DNA from: Bacteroidota bacterium
GTDB lineage: Bacteria > Bacteroidota > Bacteroidia > M30B66
NCBI GenBank assembly: GCA_947460255.1
Contig: CANHIS010000011.1
Span: forward strand, 1 to 64,000
Length of the DNA: 64,000 nt
Reading direction: 5' to 3'
The notes under the pieces were generated by a model that had not been told where the DNA came from, did no database searches, and saw nothing but the letters and a program-made list of their open reading frames with translations. Shown here piece by piece: positions 17,679-63,088 of this stretch (position 1 is the first letter of the stretch; each line of letters starts with the position of its first letter). The position numbers and the translations under genes were made by a program.

Positions 17679-19159
17679 TAGATCTCTTTTCTCAACCTTG
17701 CAACTGGAATATTCAATTGCTCACGGTATTTGGCAACGGTTCGGCGGGCTATGTTATATCCTTTGTCCTTTAAGATTTTCGCCAACTTGTCGTCGGTAAC
17801 CGGTTTGCGTTTGTCTTCGGCGGCAATTGCATCTTCTAGAATCTTTTTTACTTCCCTAGTGGAAACTTCTTCACCGGTATCGGTGGAAAGAGATTCAGAA
17901 AAGAAAGACTTTAACAACAGGGTTCCGAAAGATGTTTGAACGTATTTGCTGTTTGCTACACGTGAGATTGTGGAAATATCTAAACCAACCCGTTCTGCAA
18001 TGTCTTTTAAAATCATTGGACGCATTTTGGTTTCATCGCCCGATTGAAAATACTCAAGTTGATAATCTAAAATAGCTTGCATGGTGAGCATCAACGTGGT
18101 TTGTCGTTGGCGAATGGCATCAATAAACCAACGTGCAGAATCTATTTTCTGTTTCACAAACATCACCGCTTCTTTCTGCTCTTTATCATTTACTTTCTTC
18201 GATTTGCTGTAATGCTCGAGCATTTCTTGGTACGTGCGGCTGATTCGTAAATCAGGGGCATTTCGAGAGTTTAGCGAAAGTTCTAGAACTCCATCGTTGT
18301 TGTTCAGAATAAAATCGGGAATGATATGCTGGGTACTCTTAGGAGAATCGCTTAAAGAATTACCTGGCCGAGGATTCAATCTTAGAATCTCCTTTATGGC
18401 ATCGCGGAGTTCATTGTCGGTGAGCTCTAGCTTTTTAGCCACTTTATCATAGTGCTTTTTCGAAAACTCTTCCATACAATCCCGAAGAATCAATGCAGCG
18501 GTTTTAAGCTCTACAGTTTGGTATTCTTTGCGCTTTAGTTGAATAAGTAAGCACTCTTGCAGGTCTCTCGCTCCCACTCCTGGTGGATCTAACTGCTGAA
18601 TTTCTAGCAACAAATCCTCCAACTCTTTTTCATCGGCCATTATGTTCTGTGAGAAAGCCATATCATCCGAAATCGCAAACAATTCGCGACGTAAATAGCC
18701 GTCTTCATCGAGGTTTCCGACTAAATATTCAGCAATTTGATATTGTCTTGCATCAAGGTCACGTAACTGCAACTGATCGATGAGTTGTTCTTGAAAAGTG
18801 CTTCCTCCGGCAAAAGGGATTTCTTTTCTTTCATCATCGGGACCATAATTGTTTGCTTGGAGCTTGTATGCCGGCGTTTCGTCATCATCCAAATAGGCAT
18901 CCAAGTTAAAATCTTCGCGATTTTGATCTTCGTGTGCTTCGCCATCGCCATCGTCGGACGACGCAAATGGATCTTCCGAAATTGGCTCATCGGCGTCGTC
19001 GGCCGAATCTGAACCTTCTTCTAAGGCAGGGTTTACCTCCAGTTCTTCTTTAATTCGCTGCTCCAACGCGACGGTTGGAACCTGCAATAATTTCATCAGC
19101 TGGATTTGCTGAGGCGATAATTTTTGCAGGAGTTTCTGCTGTAGGCCTTGCTTTAACAT
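17678..19159 (-). CDS. rpoN: RNA polymerase sigma-54 factor
   Basis: 493 residues. Region I is the Gln/Leu-rich N-terminus (LQQKLLQKLSPQQIQLMKLLQ) that contacts activators. An acidic linker (about 45-110) is followed by the core-binding region, an HTH (IAERVGLDISTISRVANSKY), and the RpoN box ARRTVAKYRE near residue 470, which reads the -24 element. It directs transcription that depends on AAA+ activators; none is encoded in this window. It is followed by the GDSL gene with one base of overlap. Confidence 0.96.
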   Translation of the reverse strand: MLKQGLQQKLLQKLSPQQIQLMKLLQVPTVALEQRIKEELEVNPALEEGSDSADDADEPISEDPFASSDDGDGEAHEDQNREDFNLDAYLDDDETPAYKLQANNYGPDDERKEIPFAGGSTFQEQLIDQLQLRDLDARQYQIAEYLVGNLDEDGYLRRELFAISDDMAFSQNIMADEKELEDLLLEIQQLDPPGVGARDLQECLLIQLKRKEYQTVELKTAALILRDCMEEFSKKHYDKVAKKLELTDNELRDAIKEILRLNPRPGNSLSDSPKSTQHIIPDFILNNNDGVLELSLNSRNAPDLRISRTYQEMLEHYSKSKKVNDKEQKEAVMFVKQKIDSARWFIDAIRQRQTTLMLTMQAILDYQLEYFQSGDETKMRPMILKDIAERVGLDISTISRVANSKYVQTSFGTLLLKSFFSESLSTDTGEEVSTREVKKILEDAIAAEDKRKPVTDDKLAKILKDKGYNIARRTVAKYREQLNIPVARLRKEI

Positions 19160-19312
19160 AACGATGCAATTTTACCAAAAATCAATCAAAAGCCTTGCAT
19201 CCTTTAACAATTAAAGGAAATGAAGGAACAGTTCGAGAATTGTTGCGTATTATTACAACTCTACTCAATAAAAAAACTTCATTTATGTAGGGGTGTTTCC
19301 TTTTACAACTGT

Positions 19313-19924
19313 TTGAAGAACAAAGCCATCGTGAAAACCATCATCTCAATAAGTCTGCTTCTTTTATTAATGCACCTCAATGCAGATGCAAATGTTCGGC
19401 GACTCGAATATTCAGTTTTTGTTTCTGGCAACAACGTCGGCACGCTTCAAGCTGTTTGCACGCAGACTTCCGACAGTGTTCGGATTATTTCTTTGCAAAC
19501 CCGTTTAAGCTTCCCCTTTAGAAAGGTTTTTTCCAATATTCAAGTCCGCTATCACCACAATACATTGGTTTATGCGAGTTCCGAAAAACACTTAAATGAA
19601 GAATTGAAAGAGTGGATTACCGTTTCAAAACAACAAGAACGCTATAGAATCGAGAGCCACGACTCAGAACCAAAGTACTTTAACTCTGCAATTTCTTTTA
19701 GTGTTGGCTTGTTGTATCATTATGAACCTCAAAACAAATCCAGCATTTTTTCGGAACGTTTAGGAGCCTATGTGCCTATTAAACCAACTGGGGCAAGTGT
19801 TTATGAAATGCGGCAGCCTGACGGCAAAACCAATACATTCATTTACCGCGACGGAATTTGCACAGAAATGCAAACCGAAATGATGGCATCTCGGGTAAAA
19901 TTCAAGCTCAACGAAAAGAAATAG
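19313..19924 (+). CDS. Secreted protein of unknown function
   Basis: 203 residues from a TTG start at 19313; a GTG at 19331 is equally possible. The stretch IISISLLLLLMHLNADA makes a clean signal peptide only if translation begins at one of these; the upstream ATG at 19220 would put about 30 polar and Cys-containing residues before it. The mature part is rich in beta strands (RRLEYSVFVSGNNVGTLQ, SVRIISLQTRLSF) and resembles Bacteroidetes DUF6134-type periplasmic proteins, a match I hold loosely. It is monocistronic and ends 1 base from asnS, which is convergent. Confidence 0.7.
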   Translation: MKNKAIVKTIISISLLLLLMHLNADANVRRLEYSVFVSGNNVGTLQAVCTQTSDSVRIISLQTRLSFPFRKVFSNIQVRYHHNTLVYASSEKHLNEELKEWITVSKQQERYRIESHDSEPKYFNSAISFSVGLLYHYEPQNKSSIFSERLGAYVPIKPTGASVYEMRQPDGKTNTFIYRDGICTEMQTEMMASRVKFKLNEKK

Positions 19925-19925
19925 T

Positions 19926-21362
19926 TTAGAATTCGAGGTTTTTCGGTGTTCTTGGAAATGGAATGACGTCGCGGATATTGCCCATTCCTGTAACGAAAAG
20001 CACCAACCGTTCGAAGCCTAAACCGAAGCCACTGTGTGGAACTGTTCCAAATTTTCGGGTTTCCAAATACCACCACAAACTTTCTGCATGAATGCCCATT
20101 TCTTGAATGCGGGTATTCAGCTTCTCGTAATTTTCTTCCCTTTGTGAACCTCCAATGATTTCGCCAATTCCAGGGAAAAGCACATCCATTGCACGAACGG
20201 TTTGCCCATCGTCATCCTGCTTCATATAAAAAGCCTTGATTCCTTTCGGGTAATTTGTGAGTATAACCGGTTTTTTGAAATGCTTCTCAACCAAATAACG
20301 TTCATGCTCGCTTTGAAGATCGATTCCCCATTTGACTGGAAACTCGAACTTTTTCCCCGATTTTTCGAGGATGGAAATTGCTTCAGTATAGGTGATGCGC
20401 TCAAATGGGTTTTCGGTAACGAACTTCAATTTCTCGAGCAATGGAAGTGGATTCCGATTTTCCTTAGGAAGCAGATTCTCTTCATCCAATAGGCGCTTTT
20501 CAAGAAATGCCAAATCGTCTGCGTGATGCTCCATCGCATAGCGGATTAAATACTTCAAGAAGTCTTCTGCCAAATCCATGTTGTCATCCAACTCAAAGAA
20601 GGCCATTTCTGGTTCAATCATCCAAAACTCAGCTAAGTGACGCGCTGTGTTTGAGTTTTCGGCACGAAAGGTTGGGCCAAAAGTGTACACTCTCGATAGA
20701 GCCATGGCGGCCAATTCTCCTTCGAGTTGCCCCGAAACAGTAAGATTCGACTCCTTGCCGAAAAAATCCTGCGTGTAATCTACACTTCCATCTTCATTAC
20801 GTGGAGGATTTGCAGGATCTAAAGTGCTTACACGAAACATTTCTCCCGCGCCTTCGGCATCTGAACCAGTAATGATTGGCGCATGGATATAATAAAAATG
20901 ATGGTCGTTGAAGTACTTGTGAATAGCAAAAGCCAAAGAGTGGCGTATGCGTAATATGGCGCCAAAGGTATTTGTACGAGGGCGCAAATGAGCAATTTCT
21001 CTGAGGAATTCTAACGTATGTTTTTTCTTTTGAAGTGGATACGTATCAGCATCGGCCTCACCGAGTAATACGATGCTTTCAGCCACCATTTCTACGGTTT
21101 GTCCCACTCCTTGCGAAGCAACCAGCTTTCCTGTTGCACGAATTGATGCCCCAGTTTGGATCTTCTTCATCAGTTCTTCATCGAACTTTGCTAGTTCTGC
21201 AACAATTTGCAGATTGTTGATTGTAGAACCATCACTCAATGCGATGAAGGCAATTTCTTTGTTGCCTCGCTTGGTTCTCACCCAACCAGAAACTTCAATG
21301 TCTTGGTTTGTTGGAGCTGTTAAAAGCCAATCTGCAATACGTTTACGATGAAGAGCACCCAT
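19926..21362 (-). CDS. asnS: Asparaginyl-tRNA synthetase
   Basis: 478 residues. An N-terminal OB-fold anticodon-binding domain (about 15-110, [17 protein letters not shown]) is followed by the class II catalytic core. Motif 2 is in [22 protein letters not shown]-type sequence, and motif 3 is GFGLGFERL near the C-terminus. The AsnRS-specific length and the C-terminal [14 protein letters not shown] support AsnRS over AspRS. A CAAAAATA sequence at 21396-21403 reads as a -7 box (TATTTTTG) on the minus strand. Confidence 0.95.
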
Positions 21363-21435
21363 AATGAATTCAATAAATGTTGGTTAATGCGGGTGCAAAA
21401 ATAGTGTATCCGTTCGAAACGGACGATTGTAAAAA

Positions 21436-21960
21436 TCAGGACTTTTTTAGAAGCTTTAGGTGCCCCACATGGTGATTCCCGTGCCAAGCATACAAGGCAA
21501 CCAAATAAGAAATATCACGCTGATATTGATATTGAGGATGCACATAGGTTCTTCGCAAGTCTTCATCATGCAAACTCTTCAACACATTGCTGAGTTTGAA
21601 ATGTGTAGCTCTAATGAGGTCAATAGCACTGTCCAATGGCAACGAGTAATCTGATAATTCTGCCCATCGCTCCTCCAAATAAGGCTTAATCGTTGGGTTA
21701 TCCTCCGTGAGTGTGAGCTTTAATCGAATCAGACAATTGAGATGCGAATCGGCAATATGATGAACAACTTGATTACCAGTCCATCCGCCTTGACGGTATG
21801 GTTGTGCCAATTCATCTTCGCTCAATTGCTCCAATACCTTTAACAAATGGTGCGGAAGCGCTTCGATTTGCTCAATGTTCTTTCTAGTTTCCGAAGTTTC
21901 GTAAGACTCCAAGTTAGAAAACCGACCAATTGGAAAGCGAAGATGTTCGTCGTTTGTCAT
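21436..21960 (-). CDS. DinB-fold metal-dependent hydrolase / thiol transferase, YfiT type
   Basis: 174 residues. LRFPIGRF near the N-terminus, WTGNQVVHHIADSH in the middle and WHGNHHVGHL near the C-terminus give the three-histidine metal site of the YfiT branch of the DinB four-helix fold. In Firmicutes, members act as bacillithiol transferases or metal-dependent hydrolases; the Bacteroidota substrate is not established. Its start overlaps the upstream lipoprotein gene by 4 bases, so the two are coupled. Confidence 0.85.
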   Translation of the reverse strand: MTNDEHLRFPIGRFSNLESYETSETRKNIEQIEALPHHLLKVLEQLSEDELAQPYRQGGWTGNQVVHHIADSHLNCLIRLKLTLTEDNPTIKPYLEERWAELSDYSLPLDSAIDLIRATHFKLSNVLKSLHDEDLRRTYVHPQYQYQRDISYLVALYAWHGNHHVGHLKLLKKS

Positions 21961-22469
21961 TTTTTAGGCTCTGTGAAATTAATGCGATTTTCTTTGGCGA
22001 ATTCGTTTTGCGCTAGCCTGTATTTTTCGGTGGCTTGTGCTGTTTTTTTGTCGATTTCTTTGTACAAAATCTCAACCCTTGCTTCGTCGGTTTTAGAGTA
22101 CAAACTATCTGATTTTGAAAGCAAAGAAAGAGCTTCCTTGTACTCGTTTTCGGTAAGTTGTTGATAAGCACTAATGAATTCTAGTGTTGCTTCTTTGAAA
22201 TTTTTGTTGTCGTTGAAATCTCCAAATCCCTCTGTTTTAGCTTTAGAAAGGTTGATTTGTCCGCGTAAGCGACCATAAATCGTTTCCATATCTTGTTTCA
22301 CATAAGTATCGAGTACCTCTTGCAGTTTTTCGGCGGCTTCAACCACTTTAATTTGCTGAGTTACTAAGCTGTCGTTGTAGGCAATTGGCGTTAACTTGGA
22401 TGAATTGCCGCATGACACTAAAATAAGTGCCGTTGAAAGGATGGTGTAGTATTGGAGTTTCAAAAACAT
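21957..22469 (-). CDS. Hypothetical lipoprotein
   Basis: 170 residues. A signal peptide ends in the lipobox LVSCG (Cys20), so it should be lipid-anchored in the cell envelope. The rest is predicted almost entirely helical (EAAEKLQEVLDTY, YQQLTENEYKEALSLLSKS), compatible with a helical bundle or coiled coil. I do not recognise a specific family. It precedes the YfiT-like gene with a 4-base overlap. Confidence 0.78.
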   Translation of the reverse strand: MFLKLQYYTILSTALILVSCGNSSKLTPIAYNDSLVTQQIKVVEAAEKLQEVLDTYVKQDMETIYGRLRGQINLSKAKTEGFGDFNDNKNFKEATLEFISAYQQLTENEYKEALSLLSKSDSLYSKTDEARVEILYKEIDKKTAQATEKYRLAQNEFAKENRINFTEPKK

Positions 22470-41184: not shown

Positions 41185-41368
41185 CTTTAAGGCAAAAGTT
41201 TCACGGCTAAGCACCTCATTATTAACATTTTTTAAGCCTGATCTGAATTTTATATACTTGATATTGTTACGATTATGTAATGGTATTGGTTTTGTCCTGA
41301 ACTGTATAGTGTAGAAATAACACTTTAGTTTTTACCTTCGGATCTTTAAACGTTGATCCGTGCGCACT

Positions 41369-44242
41369 ATGACACTATTTATCCAAAGAATTTTACTAGG
41401 CCTTTTCATCTCATTACCATTATCGGTTATTAGTCAGGCAGTAGTTACCCTTAATCCTCCTTTCCCATCTGGTAACAATCCGGTAACAATCACTTTCGAC
41501 GCCAGCCAAGGAAATGCTGGATTGGTAGATTTGCCTGTTGGACAAATTGTTTACGCACACATGGGCCTAACAATCAACAATTCCAATTGGCAATACGTTG
41601 TTGGAAATTGGGGAACAGTAGACGCTCGTGTTGCAATGACGCGAATTGGAACTTCGAACATTTATTCTCTTACATTACAACCTAGTATCCGTGAATGGTT
41701 CAGCGAAAATTCAAACAACAATGCTACAGTTCCTGCTGCGGCAGTGATAAGCAAACTTTGCTTGGTTTTTAGAAACGCCAATGGCACGCTTCAAGGAAAA
41801 ACATCCTCTGGTTCGGATATTTTCATTGACCTTCCAACCACCTCATTCTCGGCTGCAATAACTTCCCACGACCAGTCAAGCTTATTACTACCTGCTGGAG
41901 AAACAGTAAACTTCGTTGGACAAACATCTTCAAATGCCATCTTGGAATTTAACCTTGATGGCGTTTCTGTTTTAAGCGATGCTGGTACAACGATTCTCAA
42001 TTATTCGATCAATACGAGTGATCTTAGTGATGGCATTCACACACTTGAATTTGTTGCTAACAACGGCGCTCAGATTATTCGTGACACTGTACTTATCACT
42101 CGTCACTCCGCAGCAACAGTAAGTGCAACGCCAACCTATGGCTTTGAAGGAATTTTCTACCCGAACGATTCAACAGTCTATTTGCAACTTCGAGCACCAG
42201 GGAAAGAATTTATTTATGTATTGGGCGATTTCAACAATTGGAATTTCGATCCAGCATACAGCATGAAACGCACACCTGATGGACAACATTATTGGATCGA
42301 AATCTCTGGGCTTACGCCTGGAAACGAATACCGCTTTCAGTACCATATCGGATGGGAAGGTTTGAGAGTAACAGATCCATATGCTAGAAAGGTACTTGAT
42401 CCTTGGAATGATCAATTTATATCAAATGAAGTTTTTCCTGATCTGCTTCCTTATCCAACAGGCAAAGCAGAAGGAATTGTTGGTGTTTTAAATACGACAG
42501 AGGAGAATTATCAGTGGGACAATAGCTACACATACACCAAGCCACTCAAAGAAGATTTGATTGTTTACGAATTGTTGGTTCGCGATTTTAGTACAGAAAG
42601 ATCATTTCAGGAAGTGCTTAATCGCTTGCCTTATCTAGCATCACTTGGAGTAAATGCCATTCAGTTTATGCCGTTGGCTGAATTTGAAGGAAACGACAGC
42701 TGGGGATACAATCCTTCGTTCTTCATGGCACTTGATAAAGCTTATGGAACCAAACATAAACTGAAAGAGCTCATCGATTCGTGTCATAGAAGAGGAATTG
42801 CAGTAATTCTGGATGTCGTTTTCAATCATTCTTTCGGCCAAAATCCAATGGTTCAAATGTACTTTGACCAATCTGCTGGTGAATTTGGCCAACCTTTGCC
42901 TGAAAGCCCTTGGTTTAATCCAGTGGCTCGACATCCATTTAATGTTGGTTATGATTTTAACCATGAAAGTCAAGCAACGCGTTACTTCGTTAAAAAAGTA
43001 GGTCAACATTGGCTTCAAGAATATCGTTTCGATGGTTTCCGTTTCGACTTAAGCAAGGGCTTTACGCAAACCAATTCTGGAAGTAACGTAGGGCAATGGG
43101 GCAATTTCGACCAAAGTCGCATCGATATCATTTACGATTATGTGAACCATTATCGATCCATCGCTGATGACCCATATATGATTCTTGAACATTTCGGGGC
43201 GTGGAATGAAGAACTTGCTTATGCCAACGGAGGAATGATGATGTGGGCAAAAGGCCACAGCCAATACACAGAAGCTGCAATGGGTTGGTTAAACGGCAAC
43301 AGTCAAAACATTTATTCAAACACTCCACAAGCGCGTGGTTGGTCGAACTATGGATTGATGCAATATGCTGAAAGTCACGATGAAGAAAGATTGATGTACT
43401 CAAATATCAATTTTGGAAATCAAGTAGACGGTTACTCTACAAGGAACTTAGCTACAGCACTCAACAGAATGTCGTTAGCAGCATGTTTCTTAATTCCACT
43501 CCCTGGCCCGAAAATGATTTGGCAATTTGGGGAATTGGGGTACGAATTTTCCATCAATCGATGCCCGAACGGTTCTATTTCTGAAGACTGCAGAACGGCA
43601 GCAAAACCAGTAGTTTGGAATTATTACGACAATACAAATCGTCGTGGAGTGTTCGATACCTACAGAAAACTGAATTATCTCAAAACTACCTATCCAGTTT
43701 TCCGCGATTTGAATGTTGGGATGGAGCTTGGGCCATACATGAAGTCGCTGCGTTTCGACAGCAATGATTTAGATGCCATCATTGTTGGGAATTTCGACGT
43801 TGTTGGAGGCACAATTAATGTAAACTTCACCCAAACAGGCAAATGGTACGATTACTTAGAAGGCGACAGTATTAATGTTTCGAACACCAACACAACGCTC
43901 AATTTAGCGGCTGGAGAATACCATGTATATCTAAATCAACGCGTTACACCGCCAACTAATACATATGGTGGAGAACCAAACAGTATCAGCAATCTTGAAG
44001 ACGATGCAGAGATCTTTGTATTCCCTAACCCTTTTAACGATCAGCTTACCATTATTCTTCCTTTGGGAGCGAAGAAAGCTAACGTAGAAATTTTCGATAT
44101 TGCAGGCCGATCTGTGTGGAATAAACAAGTGAATGGAGACGAAATCGTTCAAATGGAAAACAACGAACTTCCTAGCGGCCTCTATTTCTGCAGAATCCAA
44201 CAGTCAGGAAAAGTCTTTTCAACCAAAATCATCAAACAATAA
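41369..44242 (+). CDS. GH13 alpha-amylase family enzyme with T9SS sorting domain
   Basis: 957 residues from ATG 41369, with a signal peptide to about residue 22. N-terminal beta domains are followed by a CBM48-like module (about 265-370, YVLGDFNNWNF). The GH13 barrel has all four conserved regions: DVVFNH (Asp482), GFRFDLSK (nucleophile Asp560), ILEHFG (acid Glu607) and ESHDEE (Asp671). The last 80 residues (VFPNPFNDQLTI ... GLYFCRIQ) are a T9SS tail. It should cleave alpha-1,4- and/or alpha-1,6-glucan bonds at the cell surface. SusC and SusD genes follow. An earlier GTG at 41360 is in frame but adds only three residues. Confidence 0.92.
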   Translation: MTLFIQRILLGLFISLPLSVISQAVVTLNPPFPSGNNPVTITFDASQGNAGLVDLPVGQIVYAHMGLTINNSNWQYVVGNWGTVDARVAMTRIGTSNIYSLTLQPSIREWFSENSNNNATVPAAAVISKLCLVFRNANGTLQGKTSSGSDIFIDLPTTSFSAAITSHDQSSLLLPAGETVNFVGQTSSNAILEFNLDGVSVLSDAGTTILNYSINTSDLSDGIHTLEFVANNGAQIIRDTVLITRHSAATVSATPTYGFEGIFYPNDSTVYLQLRAPGKEFIYVLGDFNNWNFDPAYSMKRTPDGQHYWIEISGLTPGNEYRFQYHIGWEGLRVTDPYARKVLDPWNDQFISNEVFPDLLPYPTGKAEGIVGVLNTTEENYQWDNSYTYTKPLKEDLIVYELLVRDFSTERSFQEVLNRLPYLASLGVNAIQFMPLAEFEGNDSWGYNPSFFMALDKAYGTKHKLKELIDSCHRRGIAVILDVVFNHSFGQNPMVQMYFDQSAGEFGQPLPESPWFNPVARHPFNVGYDFNHESQATRYFVKKVGQHWLQEYRFDGFRFDLSKGFTQTNSGSNVGQWGNFDQSRIDIIYDYVNHYRSIADDPYMILEHFGAWNEELAYANGGMMMWAKGHSQYTEAAMGWLNGNSQNIYSNTPQARGWSNYGLMQYAESHDEERLMYSNINFGNQVDGYSTRNLATALNRMSLAACFLIPLPGPKMIWQFGELGYEFSINRCPNGSISEDCRTAAKPVVWNYYDNTNRRGVFDTYRKLNYLKTTYPVFRDLNVGMELGPYMKSLRFDSNDLDAIIVGNFDVVGGTINVNFTQTGKWYDYLEGDSINVSNTNTTLNLAAGEYHVYLNQRVTPPTNTYGGEPNSISNLEDDAEIFVFPNPFNDQLTIILPLGAKKANVEIFDIAGRSVWNKQVNGDEIVQMENNELPSGLYFCRIQQSGKVFSTKIIKQ

Positions 44243-44261
44243 CAACCACTAAAACAGGCCT

Positions 44262-47200
44262 ATGAGTCAATTGCTACGTGCCGCTTTGGTTATTTTACTG
44301 CTTTTGCCAGCAGCGATCAAAGCCCAAACAATTTCGGGGACTGTGCTCGATGAGAAAAACGAAGCCATCATTGGTGTCGCTGTTCGAATAAAGGGTACAT
44401 CCATTGGTTCCACCACGAATCTTGATGGGAAATACTCCATTAAAGCGACCACTGAAGGCGCAACAACCCTCGAAGTTTCATTACTTGGTTATGAACGACA
44501 GGAGAAAATAGTTACAGTGGTGAAAGGCCAAAATGTAGAAGCCAATTTTAAAATGAAGCCTTCTATCAACGACCTTACCGAGCTTGTAGTTGTTGGTTAC
44601 GGATCAACCGAAAAGAAAGACCTCACTGGAGCAATCACGTCTATCAATTCAAAAGACTTTAACAAAGGGTCTGTAAACACCCCTGAACAACTCATCATGG
44701 GTAAAGCTGCAGGTGTCCAAGTAACTCAAAATGGAGGATCACCAGGTTCTGGAAGTACAATCAGAATTCGTGGAGGTTCTTCCTTGAATGCCTCAAACGA
44801 TCCACTTATTGTAATTGATGGTGTACCTGTGGCTAACGATGCCATTGCAGGTTCACCGAACCCATTGAGTTTAATCAACCCGAATGATATCGAAAATATC
44901 ACCGTGTTGAAAGATGCATCAGCTACTGCAATCTACGGTTCGCGTGCATCAAACGGTGTAATTATCGTGACAACCAAAAAAGGGAAAGAAGGCGACAAGT
45001 TCAAAGTAGAATTCAATACCGTAAACTCTGTTTCTACGATTGCAAAGTATGCCGACATTTTTACTGCTGATGAGCTGCGTGAATACATCAATACAGTTGA
45101 TCCTGCTTTAGCGGGTTTTCTAGGAAATGCCAACACCGATTGGCAAAAAGAAATTTATCGTACGGCTGCATCCTCCGACAATGTCATCAGTTTTACTGGA
45201 GGCATCAAAAAACTACCATACAGGTTATCGCTTGGTTACTTAAATCAGAATGGTATCCTTATCAAAGACAACCTTCAAAGAAATACAGTGAATTTAAATC
45301 TTTCACCTAAGTTCTTTAAAGACCACTTAAAACTTGAAATAAATCAAAAATCAACCTTGAGCAATAGCTTTTTCGCTAATCAAGGAGCCATCGGTGCTGC
45401 AGTTGCTTTTGATCCAACACAACCAGTGAGAACCGACAATAACCGTTATGGTGGATTCTTTGAATGGGAAGCTGGCCCAATTCCAAACGTACTTTCAGTG
45501 AGAAATCCTGTAGGTCTTATCGAGCAACAAGAAGACATATCTAATGTTGTTCGCCACATTGGTAACTTTCAAGCTGATTACAAATTTCACTTTCTGCCCG
45601 AATTGCGCGCAAACCTTAATGTTGGGTACGATATCAGCAATGGTTCAGGTACAAATACAATTGCCGATTCAGCAGCGGCAGTTTACACCATCGAAAACAA
45701 AGGCCGATTTAGGGAGTACGAAGAAAAGCGTCAAAATAAGCTCCTAGAGTTTTTCTTAAATTACAAGAAGGAATTCAAGAAAATCAAGAGTACTGTTGAT
45801 GTAATTGCTGGTTATTCTTACCAAGACTGGTATTTTGAGTCTCCAAATATTCGCCAGCTCGATGGACAAGGAGACACTATCGTTGGAACACAAGCTCCGG
45901 TTTTCCCCTTCAACAAGGCGCAAAACACATTGATCTCTACTTATGGTCGTTTGAACTACACCTTCAACCAGAAGTACTTGTTCACTTTCACCTTGCGTAA
46001 TGACGGATCTTCTCGTTTCGCGAAGGATGTTCGTTGGGGTCTTTTCCCGTCTGCAGCTTTCGCTTGGAGAATATCAGACGAGAAGCTGTTTAAGAAATTC
46101 AAGAACCTTTCTGATTTCAAACTTCGTTTGGGATATGGTGTAACTGGGCAGCAGGATGTTGGAAACAACTTCAACTATCTTCCATTGTATGTGCAAGGAG
46201 AAAACACAGCACAGTACCAGTTTGGAAACAACTTCTACTATACACTTCGTCCAAATGTGTACGATCCTGATTTCCGTTGGGAGTCAACTACTACCTACAA
46301 TGGAGGTTTCGATTTCGGATTTTTCAATGGTCGTATCAGCGGTAGCATTGATGCTTACTTGAAGCAAACCACCGATTTGATTGCAGAAATCAATATCCCC
46401 GCAGGGATTAACTTCGGAACCCGCGTTTTGACCAATGTTGGCGAAATCGAAAACAAAGGGATTGAGTTCATTATCAACACAGTGCCAATTGTGAAAAAGG
46501 ATTTTGAATGGCAGTTTGGGTTCAACATCACAGCCAACAGAAACAAGATTATTGCACTCGACCGTTTCCCTAATCCAAACGATTTGGGTACAGAAACAGG
46601 CGGAATTGCTGGTAACGTAGGAAGCTTCATCCAAATAAACTCTGTAGGCTTCCCTATCAACACCTTCTTCGTTTACGAACAGAAGTATGATGCAGCAGGA
46701 AAGCCCATCGAAGCCAATCAAATTGGACCTGATGGAAACCAATACACTTTGCTTGATGCTTATGTAGACCGTAATGCCGACGGAATCATCAACGACCAAG
46801 ACCGTTACCGCGCCGAAACATCTCAGCCGCAAATGTTACTGGGTGTAAATACTTCATTTACCTACAAGAAATGGACGCTTAGTCTTGCTGCCCGTGGAAG
46901 CTTTGGAAACTACGTATACAACAACTTCCATTCAAACACAGGTGTTCAGGAAAACATCGTTACTGCACAAAACAACATCAACAATGGTTCTACCGATGTG
47001 TTAAACTCTGGGTTCACAAGCCGTCAACTTCAGTCGGATTATTACCTTGAGAAAGCAACATTCTTCAGAATGGACAACATCAACCTTGGTTATAATTTTG
47101 GCGGTATTGGTAAACGAATTTCGAACCTTCGTGTATTCATGACTGTTCAAAATGCATTCGTGATCACGAAGTACAGCGGTATCGATCCTGAAATCTTCAG

Positions 47201-47267
47201 TGGCGTCGACAACAACATTTATCCACGTCCGAGAATTTTCTCTTTAGGTGCTAACATTCAACTCTAA
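44262..47267 (+). CDS. susC: SusC/RagA-type TonB-linked outer-membrane transporter
   Basis: 1001 residues. Signal peptide, carboxypeptidase-like domain (about 22-105, ISGTVLDEKNEAIIGVAV), then the plug with the SusC hallmarks VVVGYGSTEKKDLTGAI, GKAAGVQVTQNGGSPG and TAIYGSRASNGVIIVTTKKG, and a large barrel to the C-terminus. It imports oligosaccharides across the outer membrane with SusD as lid. Here the upstream amylase implies maltodextrin-type glucans. It is 19 bases after the amylase stop. Confidence 0.95.
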   Translation: MSQLLRAALVILLLLPAAIKAQTISGTVLDEKNEAIIGVAVRIKGTSIGSTTNLDGKYSIKATTEGATTLEVSLLGYERQEKIVTVVKGQNVEANFKMKPSINDLTELVVVGYGSTEKKDLTGAITSINSKDFNKGSVNTPEQLIMGKAAGVQVTQNGGSPGSGSTIRIRGGSSLNASNDPLIVIDGVPVANDAIAGSPNPLSLINPNDIENITVLKDASATAIYGSRASNGVIIVTTKKGKEGDKFKVEFNTVNSVSTIAKYADIFTADELREYINTVDPALAGFLGNANTDWQKEIYRTAASSDNVISFTGGIKKLPYRLSLGYLNQNGILIKDNLQRNTVNLNLSPKFFKDHLKLEINQKSTLSNSFFANQGAIGAAVAFDPTQPVRTDNNRYGGFFEWEAGPIPNVLSVRNPVGLIEQQEDISNVVRHIGNFQADYKFHFLPELRANLNVGYDISNGSGTNTIADSAAAVYTIENKGRFREYEEKRQNKLLEFFLNYKKEFKKIKSTVDVIAGYSYQDWYFESPNIRQLDGQGDTIVGTQAPVFPFNKAQNTLISTYGRLNYTFNQKYLFTFTLRNDGSSRFAKDVRWGLFPSAAFAWRISDEKLFKKFKNLSDFKLRLGYGVTGQQDVGNNFNYLPLYVQGENTAQYQFGNNFYYTLRPNVYDPDFRWESTTTYNGGFDFGFFNGRISGSIDAYLKQTTDLIAEINIPAGINFGTRVLTNVGEIENKGIEFIINTVPIVKKDFEWQFGFNITANRNKIIALDRFPNPNDLGTETGGIAGNVGSFIQINSVGFPINTFFVYEQKYDAAGKPIEANQIGPDGNQYTLLDAYVDRNADGIINDQDRYRAETSQPQMLLGVNTSFTYKKWTLSLAARGSFGNYVYNNFHSNTGVQENIVTAQNNINNGSTDVLNSGFTSRQLQSDYYLEKATFFRMDNINLGYNFGGIGKRISNLRVFMTVQNAFVITKYSGIDPEIFSGVDNNIYPRPRIFSLGANIQL

Positions 47268-47277
47268 TCGAAGAAAC

Positions 47278-48930
47278 ATGAAACGTTCAATATTCCTTTT
47301 ATCACTCACGTTTGTTTTTCTGCTTTCTTCTTGTTTGAAGGATCTCGACAGAGAACCATTTTATGAGCAAACGTCAATTACAATCTACAAAGATCCAAAC
47401 AACTACATCCACGTTTTAGCTAAGCTTTATGCTGGCTTGGCAGTAACAGGCCAAGCAGGTCCAGCGGGCAATGCCGACATTTCGACAGCCATTGTGGATG
47501 AAGGCTTTTCGCAGTACCTGCGGATGTTGTGGAAACTTCAGGAGCTTCCAACCGATGAGGCAAAATGCCGCTGGAATGACACCGGGATTCCTGATCTTGG
47601 AAAATGGACTTGGTCTGATGGAAATCAGTGGGTTCGTGGAGGTTATCTCCGCTTCCTTTACCAAATCACTTCATGCAATGAGTTCATCAAACAATCCTCA
47701 GATGAACTTTTGGATGACCGTGGATTTAGCGAAGATGACAAAAATAAAATTCGCACCTATCGTGCGGAGGCGAGATTCCTCAAGTCTTTAAGTTTGTTCC
47801 ATGCGATGGATATTTTCGGAAACATTCCAGATATCACCGATGAGAACAAATTCCCAGGAACTGAATTCCCAACTCAAGCCAATCGTCAATTTCTATTCGA
47901 CTATATAGAAACCGAACTTCTTGCTATCGAAAATACGTTATCACCAGCAAGTTCTCAGGAATACGGCAGAGCCAGTCGCGAAGCAGCACAAACATTGTTA
48001 GCTAAAATATACCTCAACGCCAATGTTTACATTGGATCGAATCGTTTTGCTGATGCCATTACATACTGCGAGAAAGTAATTAATTCTGGTTCGTTCAGTC
48101 TTTCAACACGTTACACAGATATTTTCAGAGCCGACAATCAGAACTCTCCAGAAGTTATTTTCCCAGTCACCAGCGATGGAACTAGAACTTTGTCGTATGG
48201 TGCTACCACATTCTTAATCAATGCATCAGGCTTCCCAACCGATACATTTACCACAGGAGTAAATGCAGGTCTTATCAAAACTTATGGATCAGCTTATCCT
48301 GCTTTTAGTTTAAGAGATACTACAGGCAGTACTGCATCTTGGCAAGGATTGTTAGCCTGTAAAGAGTTAGTAAATCAATTTCCTGACTCAACAGCTGATT
48401 CACGTTTCCAGTTTGTTGTTGGTGGAAGAACTCCAGATATTACAGTACTTCCAGGGTCATCACTTACATTGAACGAAGGCTATGTTGTGAAGAAATTCAG
48501 AAACTTGACTTCTACAAATACTTTTGGTTCTAATTCAAGCTTTGCCGACACAGATTTCCCATTGTTCCGTTTGGCTGATGTGTACTTAATGTACATTGAA
48601 GCACATCTTCGTGGTGGTGGAGGATCATTAGGAGAAGCAACAACTTATTTCAATGCACTTCGTGAGCGCGCTTATGGAAACAGCAGCCAAAATGTAGCTT
48701 CAATTTCTTTAGATGATGTTCTTAACGAGCGTTCAAGAGAATTATACTGGGAAGCACACAGAAGAACCGACTTGATCCGTTTTGGGAAATTTACCGGAGG
48801 AAGCTACAATTGGACTTGGAAAGGCAACAATGCTCTAGGTGCATCTGCATCTGAGCATTTGAATTTGTTTCCACTTCCAGCAACAGAATTAACCGCCAAT
48901 CCTAACTTGAAACAAAATCCAGGATACTAA
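47278..48930 (+). CDS. susD: SusD/RagB-family glycan-binding lipoprotein
   Basis: 550 residues from ATG 47278; a longer frame would overlap susC. The lipobox LLSSCLKDLD gives a lipid anchor. The family's TPR core (YRAEARFLKSLSLFHAMDIFGNIPD) and the C-terminal LNERSRELYWEAHRRTDLIRFGKF ... FPLPATELTANPNLKQNPGY are classic. It binds the glycan and closes over the SusC channel. It is 10 bases after susC. Confidence 0.95.
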   Translation: MKRSIFLLSLTFVFLLSSCLKDLDREPFYEQTSITIYKDPNNYIHVLAKLYAGLAVTGQAGPAGNADISTAIVDEGFSQYLRMLWKLQELPTDEAKCRWNDTGIPDLGKWTWSDGNQWVRGGYLRFLYQITSCNEFIKQSSDELLDDRGFSEDDKNKIRTYRAEARFLKSLSLFHAMDIFGNIPDITDENKFPGTEFPTQANRQFLFDYIETELLAIENTLSPASSQEYGRASREAAQTLLAKIYLNANVYIGSNRFADAITYCEKVINSGSFSLSTRYTDIFRADNQNSPEVIFPVTSDGTRTLSYGATTFLINASGFPTDTFTTGVNAGLIKTYGSAYPAFSLRDTTGSTASWQGLLACKELVNQFPDSTADSRFQFVVGGRTPDITVLPGSSLTLNEGYVVKKFRNLTSTNTFGSNSSFADTDFPLFRLADVYLMYIEAHLRGGGGSLGEATTYFNALRERAYGNSSQNVASISLDDVLNERSRELYWEAHRRTDLIRFGKFTGGSYNWTWKGNNALGASASEHLNLFPLPATELTANPNLKQNPGY

Positions 48931-57166: not shown

Positions 57167-58768
57167 TCAATCCTTCCAATACTGCCTTTTGTTGCGGTCA
57201 GTGTAACCAATAACGTTTCCATTTGAATCGGTGAGTCGCATCAACAAAAAATGTGGAAGGCTTGAAGTCGGCGGCTCTGGCATGGTGAATAAGCCATATG
57301 GCAAATAAGGGGTGAAAGGCTCAACCGAATATGCTGGCACTAAGTTGTTTTTATAAGTATTGAAGTACATCCAACCGTAAAGATCGCCGGTCTTGAAAAT
57401 AGAAGTTCGGTATTGATAATTTAGCTTTACAGGCTCAAGAACTGCATCGTATTGAATTGGCAGCACTACCGAATTGTTGGCGAAGATGATGCCTGCCTTG
57501 CCCGCTTTGCGTACTTCGAGCCAAAGTGAAGAATGACTATTAACATTGCCTGCACCTTGCAATAATTTACGGTTGTAGGTTAAGCGTTCGTATTCCATTG
57601 GTACTGTGAACTTACCCGAATCGCTTACGATTCCATATCGCATTTCGCCTTCTTGGTTTCTATTGCCGACGAGAAAAAAGCCTGTGTTTTGTCGGTCGTT
57701 TATAAATTTCTCCAAGCTATCGAACATCATAGGAGGCAACTGATTGAAGCAAAGAATACCCGTTTTGTTGTTGTGCTTAAACTGAACATAGTTTCTGAAT
57801 TGCCTTAAGGTATCTCCGGCGTATTGATAGTTGGTGGCTAGATAATGATTCACTTTCACTTGGGTAGAACCCGCGGGAAGTTGGATAGCCGTTATCTTAT
57901 TTTGACCTTTCCCACCAGTTCGCTTGTTCATGAGTGTTTCATGAAACTGTAAGGTGTCGTTTTTATAAGTGTAGGAGCAGTAAACAATTTCTTTCGCTGG
58001 TCTTTCATTGGGATATGCCTCCATATCCATCGGAGGAACTGCAACATCATCATATTCTCCTACTTGCCGCAACATGACTCCTTCAGAATCATATCCATAA
58101 GAATTAGATTGCTTGGGTCTTTTGGGATTTGATGGAATAATGGAACCTATAGAGGCATCAACATCGAAGGTGAGCTTTTCTTCGTAAGGCTTGCCGGAAA
58201 ATTCTACGAGAAAGGATGCTTGAAGATTGCTATTGTCGACCACTTTAACCGATTCGATCTGCTTTGCTAGAACGATAGGTTTACCTGGCTTCTTGGGTGA
58301 AAATGCAACAAGTGATCGTGTTTTGTCGGGGTTCGAAATGATGAAGTACAGAAAAAAACCAGCCTCCAAATAATGCGCACCTAGATCTTTCACTATTTCC
58401 ACTTTGGTATTAAACAGTGGCTTCCCATTGGTTTGGAAGTATTCACGCTGGTCGTTTTTCTTGATACCGATGCATTGAAAGTCATCGAAGTAGAAACGAT
58501 CAAATGCAGGCGCGATCATTTCCGACGTGTTAAACAAACCACGCAATCCGCCTTTTTCTACTACATAACAATCTTGCGGGAGGTTGTGAATGTTCATGGC
58601 AGAAGCTTCAGTAGGAAAATAAATCCGATCGTACTTTGGTGCTTGGATGATCTTGCCTAAAGTATCGGCGAAACCCCACAATGAACCGATTCGATAAGGA
58701 ACAACGCCTTTTTGCGCGTGTAGAAAAGTGCCGAAACACACAAGCAGTAAAGTACACAGGTTTCTCAT
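57167..58768 (-). CDS. Secreted WG-repeat protein (paralogue 1)
   Basis: 533 residues with a signal peptide (cleavage near residue 18, FLHAQ). WG/KWG-type repeats open the protein (YRIGSLWGFADTLGKIIQAPKYDRI) and recur near the C-terminus (RYGIVSDSGKFTVPMEYERL, KAGIIFANNSVVLPIQYDAV). A central region of about 200 residues is unlike known repeats. It is a clear paralogue of the next gene upstream (same start pattern, FADTLGK versus FTDTTGK, a shared QLPAG/ALPQGAS segment and the same tail region ending in YW/FWKD-NDs). WG repeats form beta-propeller-like structures of poorly known function. It is probably cotranscribed with its paralogue and the TPR-LuxR regulator. Confidence 0.82.
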   Translation of the reverse strand: MRNLCTLLLVCFGTFLHAQKGVVPYRIGSLWGFADTLGKIIQAPKYDRIYFPTEASAMNIHNLPQDCYVVEKGGLRGLFNTSEMIAPAFDRFYFDDFQCIGIKKNDQREYFQTNGKPLFNTKVEIVKDLGAHYLEAGFFLYFIISNPDKTRSLVAFSPKKPGKPIVLAKQIESVKVVDNSNLQASFLVEFSGKPYEEKLTFDVDASIGSIIPSNPKRPKQSNSYGYDSEGVMLRQVGEYDDVAVPPMDMEAYPNERPAKEIVYCSYTYKNDTLQFHETLMNKRTGGKGQNKITAIQLPAGSTQVKVNHYLATNYQYAGDTLRQFRNYVQFKHNNKTGILCFNQLPPMMFDSLEKFINDRQNTGFFLVGNRNQEGEMRYGIVSDSGKFTVPMEYERLTYNRKLLQGAGNVNSHSSLWLEVRKAGKAGIIFANNSVVLPIQYDAVLEPVKLNYQYRTSIFKTGDLYGWMYFNTYKNNLVPAYSVEPFTPYLPYGLFTMPEPPTSSLPHFLLMRLTDSNGNVIGYTDRNKRQYWKD

Positions 58769-58839
58769 GCCCGAAAGGTAAGCCGAAAAATGATTTCCAT
58801 AATTGTAAGAAGGTTTGGAAACGAAATGCCGCTTTTTAC

Positions 58840-58941
58840 AATGCTGCCGCGAAAGGGATAGGAGCCGATAGGCGGATAGCCCGGTGCCGCTTTCGGGATG
58901 ACGATAGAAAACGATTAATTGAGCGGCATTCGCCCAATTAA
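58840..58941. repeat. GC-rich palindromic intergenic element between the WG genes
   Basis: The 189-base gap 58769-58957 contains a GC-rich segment (58846-58897) bounded by near-complementary ends (GCGAAAG and CTTTCGG), and a hairpin at 58915-58941 (TTAATTG-A-GCG / CGC-C-CAATTAA) that could terminate the minus-strand gene. The GCGGATAGCCCG core resembles repeat-like intergenic sequences I recall from other Bacteroidota; not verified. Confidence 0.5.
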
Positions 58942-58957
58942 TTTAAAAAAAACACGA

Positions 58958-60610
58958 CTAATCGTTCCAGAATTCCAAGCCTTTGGGATGGTAAAAACCG
59001 ATCAATCGACCGTCGTTGCTGGAAATTTGCAATAGCGGAAAAACCTTTCGGTACTCGGAAGCATTTTCGTCAACATCGAGAAAACGTATTGCTTTGATGC
59101 GATGCTCGGTGAATGGCTCGATCAAGGCAGTCGACACGGGAGGCTTTGCGTTGCGGGGTTTGTATTGGTAAAATGCGCCAGACAAATCGTTGTTTCGGAG
59201 CTCGAAAAGCTGGACATCGTCTTTGCTTTTGGCTGTTGGTAGAATTTCGCTGTAACGACACGCCAAAATTTGACGGTTTTTAAGCGTGAGCAAGCCTTTG
59301 AGATTGTTCTGACCAACAACAAAAATGTAATTTCGGTAATCGATATTTTGGTACTTATTTTCGGGCAAGCCGGATAGTAGATCGTAAACTGGAGGAATGA
59401 TTACTTCGTTAGAATCGTTCACCATGCCGAATTTTAGCGAATTGTTTGACTGTCGAACGCCGATCAAGAAATGGTGGTTGATATTGTTGTCGGGATACAC
59501 CACCGAAACAGAGTCGTAACAGATGGGCGGCTGTCGGTCGAAAGCAAGCACGCAGGTTTTTTGGTCAATTTTATAGTGTACGAAATTCCTGTAAAACAGC
59601 ACTGAATCGCCAATAATTTGCTTGTTCGAAGTTCCTGAGTAGGGCACAACTTGCACGTTAGATGCGCCTTGCGGAAGCGCGATTGAGGTTCGAAAATTCG
59701 AATCAGCAGTTCTGGTTCTAGAGCGCATAGGCAGCAACTCTAAATGCAGAATGGAGGTTGCTGTATCGAAAACAAACTGAGCCATTTTGTTGGGATTCTG
59801 CTGTTCGGGTTGTCTATCGGGATAGTCATCAGGATCTCCAGCATTGCCTGTGCCAGAGCCGGAACCAGAACCAGAACCGCTCAATCCAAAAGGGTCGGAA
59901 GTGGGTATTGGAACCGGCGAAACCTCGAAACGATCAGTTTTAGATTCGTATGCAAATGTGATTATTTCGAAATCAGATTGACGATCTTTTTGCACTTTGA
60001 AAGCTACACGATCAACTTCAAATTGGTTTGTTTTAAGGATTGAAGCGCAATCTTCAATGATGAAATGTGATTTCTGTAATTCGTTCGGATAATACGCATA
60101 CAAAGAAAGCAATCTTCCAGGCTGAACGATTTTCAATAGATGGATTGGCGAGCGAGCGAGCTTTCCTTTCTTTCGAAAATAAGAGAATTCTAATCGTTCG
60201 ATGCGCTGAGCATCATTTAAAATTCGAACGCCCTTTTTGGAATAGAAATGCGTTTGGAAATTCGAAAAGGGTTGGGCTACATAGATTTCTGATGAAAGGC
60301 CTTGGATAAATCTGTATTGATTTGGGATGAACAAATCGGGACCTACCAAACCAAACATTGAATCAACTTTAGTGAGATAATGCTGCTTTGGAATTTTAGC
60401 CTCATAATACAGAGGATGCGATCTGTCGAAAAGGATGGCATCGAACTGAGGTTTAACAAGCAACTTTCCTGTAGTGTCGGTAAAGCCCCATTGAGACTTG
60501 ATCCGATAAGGAACCAGGATTTGACTTTGTGCAGAAAGTTTGGTTGCGAGAAAAAGGAAGACAGCAACGCATCTTGCGAGATTCGAAAATCTGAATTTGA
60601 TACTTATCAT
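58958..60610 (-). CDS. Secreted WG-repeat protein (paralogue 2)
   Basis: 550 residues from ATG 60608-60610, overlapping the stop of the TPR-LuxR gene by 4 bases (ATGA), so translation is coupled. A signal peptide ends near residue 28 (TKLSAQ). The first WG repeat is YRIKSQWGFTDTTGKLLVKP; later repeats are KFGMVNDSNEVIIPPVYDLL and LKGLLTLKNRQILACRYSEI. A low-complexity Gly/Ser linker (about 244-254, from a hexamer-like repeat at 59850-59882) is unique to this copy. It ends ...GLEFWND, against ...KRQYWKD in its paralogue. Function is unknown; probably periplasmic or surface-exposed. Confidence 0.82.
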   Translation of the reverse strand: MISIKFRFSNLARCVAVFLFLATKLSAQSQILVPYRIKSQWGFTDTTGKLLVKPQFDAILFDRSHPLYYEAKIPKQHYLTKVDSMFGLVGPDLFIPNQYRFIQGLSSEIYVAQPFSNFQTHFYSKKGVRILNDAQRIERLEFSYFRKKGKLARSPIHLLKIVQPGRLLSLYAYYPNELQKSHFIIEDCASILKTNQFEVDRVAFKVQKDRQSDFEIITFAYESKTDRFEVSPVPIPTSDPFGLSGSGSGSGSGTGNAGDPDDYPDRQPEQQNPNKMAQFVFDTATSILHLELLPMRSRTRTADSNFRTSIALPQGASNVQVVPYSGTSNKQIIGDSVLFYRNFVHYKIDQKTCVLAFDRQPPICYDSVSVVYPDNNINHHFLIGVRQSNNSLKFGMVNDSNEVIIPPVYDLLSGLPENKYQNIDYRNYIFVVGQNNLKGLLTLKNRQILACRYSEILPTAKSKDDVQLFELRNNDLSGAFYQYKPRNAKPPVSTALIEPFTEHRIKAIRFLDVDENASEYRKVFPLLQISSNDGRLIGFYHPKGLEFWND

Positions 60611-62619
60611 ACCAATTGAAGCCATTCGCCAAGATCAGTTTCGTTGGGCAGTTCGAGCTTTTTGCGCAGGCGATATCGGTTCATATCGACACTCTTAGGA
60701 CTAATATTTAGCACACCTGCAATTTCTTTGGAGGACAAACCTAGGCGAATCATCGCACAAAGTTTACGTTCGTTTTCGGTTAAAGGCGGAAACTTTTGTT
60801 GCAGGCGTTGGTAAAAATCGGCGTTGATCAGTTCTACATTGAGATCGAAATTTTCGCGTTGCTTGGAGATGTTGAGTTTCTGTTCAAGATCTCGTTCAAA
60901 GGTTCGTAACTCGTCTGTGTTTGCCGATTTGATCTCAGATCGGATACTTTCCAAAAACTCCGACTGCTGACTAATATACAACGCCAACTGTGTGATTTCC
61001 TTTCGCTTAAATTCGAGTTCGTTGCGCATTTGAATGGCTTCGAGATTGGCCAATAACAAAGCCGACTCAGCAGATTCTTTGCGAGATTCTGCCAATGCTC
61101 GGTCCTGTTCAGCTAAAACTCTTTTCTGATCAGAAATAGATCGCTCTTGGTCGGCGATCGACAAGTCTTGTTCTGCAATTGCTTTCTGCTTCTGTGCAAT
61201 TTCGAGCTTTTGTTTTTCAATGATTTGCTTTCGATTGGTGTTGTTTCGGTACCAAAATGCTGAAACAGCAAAAACGAGGAGAATAGCAATTCCTGCAATT
61301 GAGTAGATCAAGCGGTTACGTTGCAAAATTTTGATTTCGCTGTCTTTAACCAAGATTTCCTTTTCTTTTTTCTCGGTTTCATAAATGGCTTGCATCTCTG
61401 CAATCGAACGAATGCGCTCGCTGTTGTATAGCGAATCTTTGAGATTGGTGTACAATTTCATGTCGTCGAGCGCCCGGGAAAATCTCCCTTCTTCTTCGAA
61501 ATAAGTTGAGCGCGCAAGGTAGAATTCGGCCAAAAGGTAATCTGTACCCAACTGATTCACGACTACTTCAGAAGAATCGAACAAAGTTTCTGCCCGCTTG
61601 CTTTCTCCAATTGCAGCGCAGGCTTTTGCCATGTTAAACAGCGTGAGCGCAATTCCATAAGTTTCGTTGCTGGCGGTGCGGATTTCGAGTGCTTGTTCGA
61701 ACTTCGCAAGGGCTCTTTCATTTTCCCCTTGAACAAGTAAGGCTTCTGCAGAATTGTGAAGCGCTTGTGCCATGCCGAGTTCATCGCCAGTCTCGATAAA
61801 AATCGCCATCGATCGGTCGTAATAAACTTGGGCGGTGTCGAGGTTGCCAAAATTGAAATAAGCAACTCCTAGACCCATTAAGGAGCGACTTTCTCCGCGT
61901 TTATCGCCCAATTGATTGTATGATTTTCGGGCTCGGTGGAGATAAACAATGGCACTTGGATATTCCTTTTGACTTGTAAATGCCATTCCGAGATTCGACT
62001 GGCATTCGGCTTTCAAAATAGGATCGTTCACCTCTTCGGCGATTCGTAGGGCTTTTAAGTAATTCTTTACACTCTTTGCATATTGCGTTTGATAATGAGC
62101 AACCACACCTAAATTGCTAATGCACTTGGCCTCGCCAAAGCGATCTCCAGCTGATATGTAAAGCGCCAATGCTTCCGAAAAACGACGATCGGCTTCGATG
62201 TATTTTCCTTGGTGCATCAGGCAAAGTCCGAGCGTATTGAATGCTCCAGCCTTTTCTCCATAACTACCAATTTCGTTGAGTAAAAAGATCGCTTCACGTG
62301 CAAGTGTCTCGGCGGTATCGAGGCGACTTTTCATGTAGAAAGCAGTGGCTAATGCCTTACGCGACAATGCAATGCCGCGATCGAATTCTTGCTTTTTCGA
62401 TAAACTGTCTGCACTAGATGCAAAACGTAAGCATCGATCTGCATCAACCCGGCGATATTCAAACGACAAGTCGAGAAGTAACTTGATCTTGGTCGTATCT
62501 GAAGCCGTTTTTAAACGATACTCTAGGTTTCGAATACTTTCGGAAAGCTGTGAATACCCGAGAAAGGGAAGACAAAGAATAGATAGAAAAATGATTGTTC
62601 GTTGTCTGAAAAATAGCAT
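60607..62619 (-). CDS. Membrane TPR protein with C-terminal LuxR-type HTH
   Basis: 670 residues. A signal/anchor N-terminus is followed by about eight TPR repeats (about 40-400, such as GAFNTLGLCLMHQGKYIEAD). A transmembrane helix at about 434-455 leads to a long Gln/Glu-rich coiled coil (about 460-560), then a LuxR HTH (about 613-660, LTENERKLCAMIRLGLSSKE, ISPKSVDMNRYRLRKKL). TPRs should lie in the periplasm and the HTH in the cytoplasm, making a one-protein membrane sensor-regulator. This design is common in Bacteroidota. It overlaps the first WG gene and likely controls the cluster. Confidence 0.9.
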   Translation of the reverse strand: MLFFRQRTIIFLSILCLPFLGYSQLSESIRNLEYRLKTASDTTKIKLLLDLSFEYRRVDADRCLRFASSADSLSKKQEFDRGIALSRKALATAFYMKSRLDTAETLAREAIFLLNEIGSYGEKAGAFNTLGLCLMHQGKYIEADRRFSEALALYISAGDRFGEAKCISNLGVVAHYQTQYAKSVKNYLKALRIAEEVNDPILKAECQSNLGMAFTSQKEYPSAIVYLHRARKSYNQLGDKRGESRSLMGLGVAYFNFGNLDTAQVYYDRSMAIFIETGDELGMAQALHNSAEALLVQGENERALAKFEQALEIRTASNETYGIALTLFNMAKACAAIGESKRAETLFDSSEVVVNQLGTDYLLAEFYLARSTYFEEEGRFSRALDDMKLYTNLKDSLYNSERIRSIAEMQAIYETEKKEKEILVKDSEIKILQRNRLIYSIAGIAILLVFAVSAFWYRNNTNRKQIIEKQKLEIAQKQKAIAEQDLSIADQERSISDQKRVLAEQDRALAESRKESAESALLLANLEAIQMRNELEFKRKEITQLALYISQQSEFLESIRSEIKSANTDELRTFERDLEQKLNISKQRENFDLNVELINADFYQRLQQKFPPLTENERKLCAMIRLGLSSKEIAGVLNISPKSVDMNRYRLRKKLELPNETDLGEWLQLV

Positions 62620-62677: not shown

Positions 62678-63088
62678 TCAGATAGTAGCAATCACCTTAA
62701 GTTCGATGGCGATTGGCGTAGGTAAACAATTGATTTCCAATGTTGTTCTACATGGAAGATTGTCTTTGAAAAACTCGGCATAAACACGATTGTAGATAGG
62801 GAAATCGTCTTTCATGTTGGTTAGAAACACGGTAACATCCACGATATTATCCCATGAAGAACCACAGTCTTCGAGGATGTAACGGATGTTATTGAACACT
62901 GAGCGACATTGAGTTTCTATGTCGTAACTGACGATGTTACCTTGTGGATCTAGTTCTACACCAGGAATTATTTTGGTTCCTCTCTCGCGGGGACCAACAC
63001 CACTGAGGAATAATAGGTTGCCAACACGGCGAGCATGCGGGTATAAACCAACTGGTTCGGGAGCACGGGAAGAATTGAGCTTGTCCAT
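62678..63088 (-). CDS. RidA-family deaminase, 2-aminomuconate deaminase-like
   Basis: 136 residues. SRAPEPVGLYPHARRVG, LFLSGVGPRERG, NIVSYDIETQCRSVFNN and CRTTLEINCLPTPIAIELK follow the AmnD branch of the RidA/YjgF family more closely than general imine-hydrolysing RidA. AmnD deaminates 2-aminomuconate in the kynurenine (tryptophan) degradation pathway. No other pathway gene is in the window, so the assignment stays tentative. The conserved Arg of RRT/CRTT that contacts the substrate is present. Confidence 0.83.
   Translation of the reverse strand: MDKLNSSRAPEPVGLYPHARRVGNLLFLSGVGPRERGTKIIPGVELDPQGNIVSYDIETQCRSVFNNIRYILEDCGSSWDNIVDVTVFLTNMKDDFPIYNRVYAEFFKDNLPCRTTLEINCLPTPIAIELKVIATI

Follow-up and report, generated by a model that had tools for sequence, protein, structure and literature searches.

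The membrane regulator and the two WG-repeat genes that lie behind it in the window (the whole stretch of 64,000 nucleotides that was analysed) are more likely to be ordinary neighbours than a new dedicated system, because close relatives keep the regulator and secreted WG proteins apart. The locus is best explained, with a probability of roughly two in three, by an autonomous membrane-anchored one-component regulator of a common type, behind which the gene WG1 has become coupled in one small clade. The locus comprises the following features:

62678..63088, minus strand: RidA/YjgF-type protein of 136 aa (Pfam Ribonuc_L-PSP, E=2e-25)
60607..62619, minus strand: membrane regulator of 670 aa with TPR, transmembrane (TM) helix, linker and LuxR helix-turn-helix (HTH) in that order (Pfam TPR_12 and GerE; hydropathy)
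60607..60610, minus strand: ATGA start/stop overlap of the regulator and WG1 (from the sequence; also in G001)
58958..60610, minus strand: WG1, a secreted WG-repeat protein of 550 aa counted from the coupled ATG (Pfam WG_beta_rep)
57167..58768, minus strand: WG2, a secreted WG-repeat protein of 533 aa (Pfam WG_beta_rep; paralogue of WG1)

The open reading frames confirm the three genes and the 4-base overlap that the earlier note had described. The listed reading frame of WG1 begins at 60625 and overlaps the regulator by 19 bases, whereas a start at the alternative ATG of 60610 reduces this overlap to the 4 bases ATGA. An identical overlap is found in the sister species G001 (L034 4586-4589). 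No other close relative retains the arrangement, and dN/dS was calculated against G001. The low values obtained (0.09 for the regulator, 0.19 for WG1, 0.14 for WG2 and 0.03 for RidA) indicate that all four genes are real and that purifying selection acts on them. The synteny of G000 and G001 ends directly after WG2, and the next genes of G001 (L034 8029 onward) match window positions 17678-22469.

The regulator itself can be divided into five parts:

62539..62619, minus strand: N-terminal signal-like hydrophobic segment, residues 1-27 (hydropathy)
61450..62502, minus strand: TPR array, about residues 40-390, predicted periplasmic (Pfam TPR families)
61252..61314, minus strand: single transmembrane helix, about residues 436-456 (hydropathy maximum 2.49)
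60820..61242, minus strand: cytoplasmic linker rich in K/E/Q, about residues 460-600 (read from the sequence)
60631..60786, minus strand: LuxR/GerE helix-turn-helix, residues 612-663 (Pfam GerE, E=2.3e-9)

The TPR array occupies the N-terminal half of the protein (TPR_12, E=3.2e-31) and the GerE domain its C-terminus (37.2 bits against a cut-off of 23.5). By hydropathy alone, there is one TM helix between the two in addition to the N-terminal signal, which makes TPR outside the cytoplasm and HTH inside the natural topology, as the earlier note had proposed. The second half of the linker is conserved together with the HTH, and from its composition the linker is likely a coiled coil. Several known systems resemble this protein in part. 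The TPR region and TM stretch of a FimS-type TPR sensor histidine kinase (NF053520) align to residues 119-470; however, the output of that protein is a histidine kinase instead of a LuxR HTH, and Pfam found no histidine kinase or ATPase domain in the regulator. Nor does the regulator fit a MalT-type STAND LuxR protein: Pfam placed no cytoplasmic NTPase domain between sensor and HTH, and TPR_MalT scored below its cut-off. A further likeness is to the family of BT_3442, a TPR protein of Bacteroides thetaiotaomicron (NF053779), the model of which aligns to residues 146-666 (E=7e-15), spanning the TPR, TM and HTH parts and most of the model. The score of 54.7 bits against a curated cut-off of 940 nevertheless excludes the regulator as an equivalog of BT_3442. 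A putative operon that begins with BT_3442 encodes duplicated, lipoprotein-rich secreted proteins (PMC2954219). That cluster contains MACPF and pore-like proteins, whereas a WG pair is not described there.

The regulator is of a type that is common in the class. Its HTH-linker module was matched in 54 of 149 class genomes, spread over 44 of 98 genera. When ten proteins bearing the module were scanned with Pfam, eight had TPR repeats, in five cases together with GerE at E<1e-4, while one combined Y_Y_Y with GerE and one was without a Pfam match at the threshold used. In most of them, a single TM helix was predicted to precede the HTH module. The Y_Y_Y-sensor LuxR membrane regulators (L097) share the TM, linker and LuxR output module with the window regulator, but carry a Y_Y_Y sensor domain where the latter has TPR, so that different sensors are joined to the same HTH output. 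There is accordingly nothing unusual about the regulator, the architecture of which is abundant and widespread. Elsewhere in the window, positions 16257-17015 encode a PAS-LuxR regulator without TPR, and positions 41360-48930 hold in a row an alpha-amylase with a secretion tail, a TonB-dependent receptor and a SusD-family protein, which is an ordinary starch-utilisation-like cluster.

Whether the regulator and the WG genes belong together was judged from their linkage in other genomes. The C-terminal 140 residues of the regulator were compared with 395 class genomes, and close orthologues, defined by at least 60% identity over this region, were present in eight. Seven of the eight loci have readable downstream sequence; that of G076 was left out of the count because its contig stops just behind the regulator. 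WG genes stand behind the regulator in only two of the seven, those of the sister species G000 and G001, both with the order RidA, regulator, WG1, WG2. In G003 and G004, RidA and the regulator are followed by an opposite-strand gene of 460 aa, by eye presumably RadA-like, and WG genes are missing from the vicinity; each of these genomes has its single WG gene elsewhere, adjoining genes that we take from sequence reading to be fabI- and recN-like. In G007, RidA again precedes the regulator and the WG relative lies on another contig, so that in G003, G004 and G007 alike both partners are present and unlinked. Neither RidA nor WG is found beside the regulator in G088 and G316. The search for conserved TPR-LuxR/WG neighbourhoods was the earlier note's own test, and linkage confined to two sister species is largely the outcome that it had named as speaking against its proposal.

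The same picture emerges from the WG side. When 149 relatives were scanned with WG2, four genomes of the genus (G000, G001, G003 and G004) were the only ones to yield full-length homologues, and a WG profile search reached more distant ones, for example in G007, G069, G130 and G189. In other genomes and families, relatives of WG1 and WG2 adjoin uvrB, thiC, msrA or genes for secreted proteins. No regulator homologue was found near WG relatives in 14 regions read outside this genome, with flanks mostly of about 5 kb (shorter at contig ends) and a regulator-profile positive control that worked. As weaker evidence, none of the matches listed placed a WG gene and the HTH module on a shared contig.

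These data bear directly on the proposal of a dedicated envelope-sensing system, in which WG1 and WG2 would act on the TPR domain as periplasmic ligands or as negative regulators, the regulator would control them, and the whole would be recent in the clade. The ATGA overlap, the gene order, the retention of both paralogues in G000 and G001 and the purifying selection on WG1 and WG2 are all as expected from such a system. However, linkage at two of seven testable loci, WG homologues unlinked in G003, G004 and G007 as well as in genomes without a close orthologue, and a terminator-like hairpin that sets WG2 apart make it unlikely. A dedicated WG-ligand circuit in the G000/G001 clade has no support beyond adjacency. 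What stands of the linked system that had been envisaged is a membrane-spanning regulator and the coupling of WG1 to it, and not a dedicated, undescribed TPR-LuxR/WG system. The autonomous regulator is supported by G003, G004, G007, G088 and G316, where the orthologue has no WG genes linked to it, and by the unlinked WG homologues in G003, G004, G007 and other families. Counted against it were that regulators normally control something nearby and that the 4-base overlap, together with both WG copies being kept in two species, may point to a young functional link.

Within the family, the gene that constantly accompanies the regulator is RidA, not WG. A RidA gene, about 88% identical or more across the family, lies directly upstream on the same strand in all five family genomes with an orthologue (G000, G001, G003, G004 and G007). 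The regulator could on this ground be thought to control, or report on, the RidA gene and its metabolism, the WG genes being bystanders. Yet RidA is present without an adjacent regulator in G002, G005, G006 and G009, the spacing between the two varies from 58 to about 370 bases, no RidA lies near the orthologues of G076, G088 and G316, and the RidA enzyme has no evident envelope signal. A RidA-linked function is therefore improbable.

The region between WG1 and WG2 (189 bases, 58769-58957) is unusually well conserved with G001 when set against the flanking genes, the synonymous divergence of which is 0.4-0.5. It contains two features:

58914..58942, minus strand: terminator-like hairpin of 12 pairs with a T-rich tail, after WG1 (the longest stem among such sites)
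58841..58890, plus strand: Flavo-1-like RNA element (GGGATAG-n-CGGATAGCCC core; gap conserved in G001)

As the number of terminator-like hairpins in the region is not above chance, the one behind WG1 is suggestive only. The RNA-like element recurs in 24 copies in 11 of 149 genomes, against one match for a reversed control, and its apical stem changes yet stays paired in most copies. Flavo-1 RNA (RF01705) has a GGGAUAG / GGAUAGCCC core, which likewise reads on the plus strand of the gap; the window element differs in its shortened apical hairpin and in its score of 13.6 bits, below the Rfam gathering score of 42. Of 20 copies checked, three were recognised as Flavo-1 RNA, also below its threshold. 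That only some copies approach the threshold suggests that the Rfam family model may be too narrow. A riboswitch of WG2 was considered and rejected, since it is the opposite strand that matches the family and that folds better (z=-2.9 versus -1.0). Together, the terminator-like hairpin and the conserved opposite-strand RNA-like element indicate that WG2 is probably a transcription unit separate from WG1.

WG1 and WG2 are full-length paralogues with 24% identity over 557 columns (E=1e-34), which bears out the earlier view of WG2 as a diverged copy. Their N-termini are signal-peptide-like stretches ending in ..SAQ and ..HAQ. With WG_beta_rep (PF14903) scores of 35.6 bits for WG1 and 25.9 bits for WG2, both lie above the gathering cut-off of 25.6. 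They share with other PF14903 proteins their secretion and repeats of the form W-G-[FL]-x-D-x-x-G-K; they differ in that only one or two repeats can be recognised and that the middle part is of low complexity and poorly predicted. Pfam finds two significant repeats in WG1 and one in WG2 compared with eight in other WG proteins of the same genome, so an array of many recognisable repeats, which is typical of the family though not strictly defining, is absent from both and they are weak WG members. WG repeats as such are present in 121 of 149 class genomes. AlphaFold runs with 6 and 10 sequences gave all-beta models with a low-confidence middle (pTM 0.44 and 0.59, the latter a moderate confidence overall). 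The Foldseek matches were beta-propeller-like, but with TM-scores of at most 0.25 and an rmsd of about 19 A or more no fold is claimed. A sequence search of the PDB with the WG profile gave nothing meaningful, and a literature search on WG repeats returned no functional study among the papers searched. The single WG gene of G003 and G004 may be the orthologue of either WG1 or WG2, the support for its grouping being 50.

Restriction of the arrangement to one clade would also be expected had the WG genes simply landed behind the regulator in the ancestor of G000 and G001, a pure chance juxtaposition without co-expression. Start/stop overlaps such as ATGA, however, generally imply translation from a shared transcript, so WG1 is very likely translated from that of the regulator, and chance alone is a very unlikely explanation.

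With an autonomous regulator as the preferred explanation, the periplasmic TPR solenoid would sense the protein or peptide state of the envelope, the TM helix and the cytoplasmic linker would pass the change inward, and the C-terminal HTH would bind DNA, probably as a dimer. A duplicated, secreted WG pair, predicted to be all-beta, sits directly behind this regulator in the G000/G001 clade. WG1, as judged from its translational coupling, would be co-transcribed and co-expressed with the regulator, and WG2, past the hairpin and the conserved non-coding stretch, would have its own transcript. The WG products may be periplasmic or cell-surface binding or scaffold proteins that do not require the regulator.

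As it stands, the locus offers little beyond a tidy example of an abundant regulator type. A bolder reading, which we regard as highly improbable, is that in the G000/G001 clade a TPR-LuxR receptor has recently acquired, behind it, a once free-standing WG pair that now serves as its periplasmic ligand or brake; if true, a newly wired envelope-to-DNA circuit would have been caught soon after its origin. Our literature search on TPR-LuxR regulators of Bacteroidetes or Flavobacterium found no functional study and no characterised member among the papers searched. As membrane regulators of this kind are abundant in the class, any system for which both ligand and target can be named would be useful, and the WG proteins, if they were the ligand, would provide a first handle on what such TPR sensors read.
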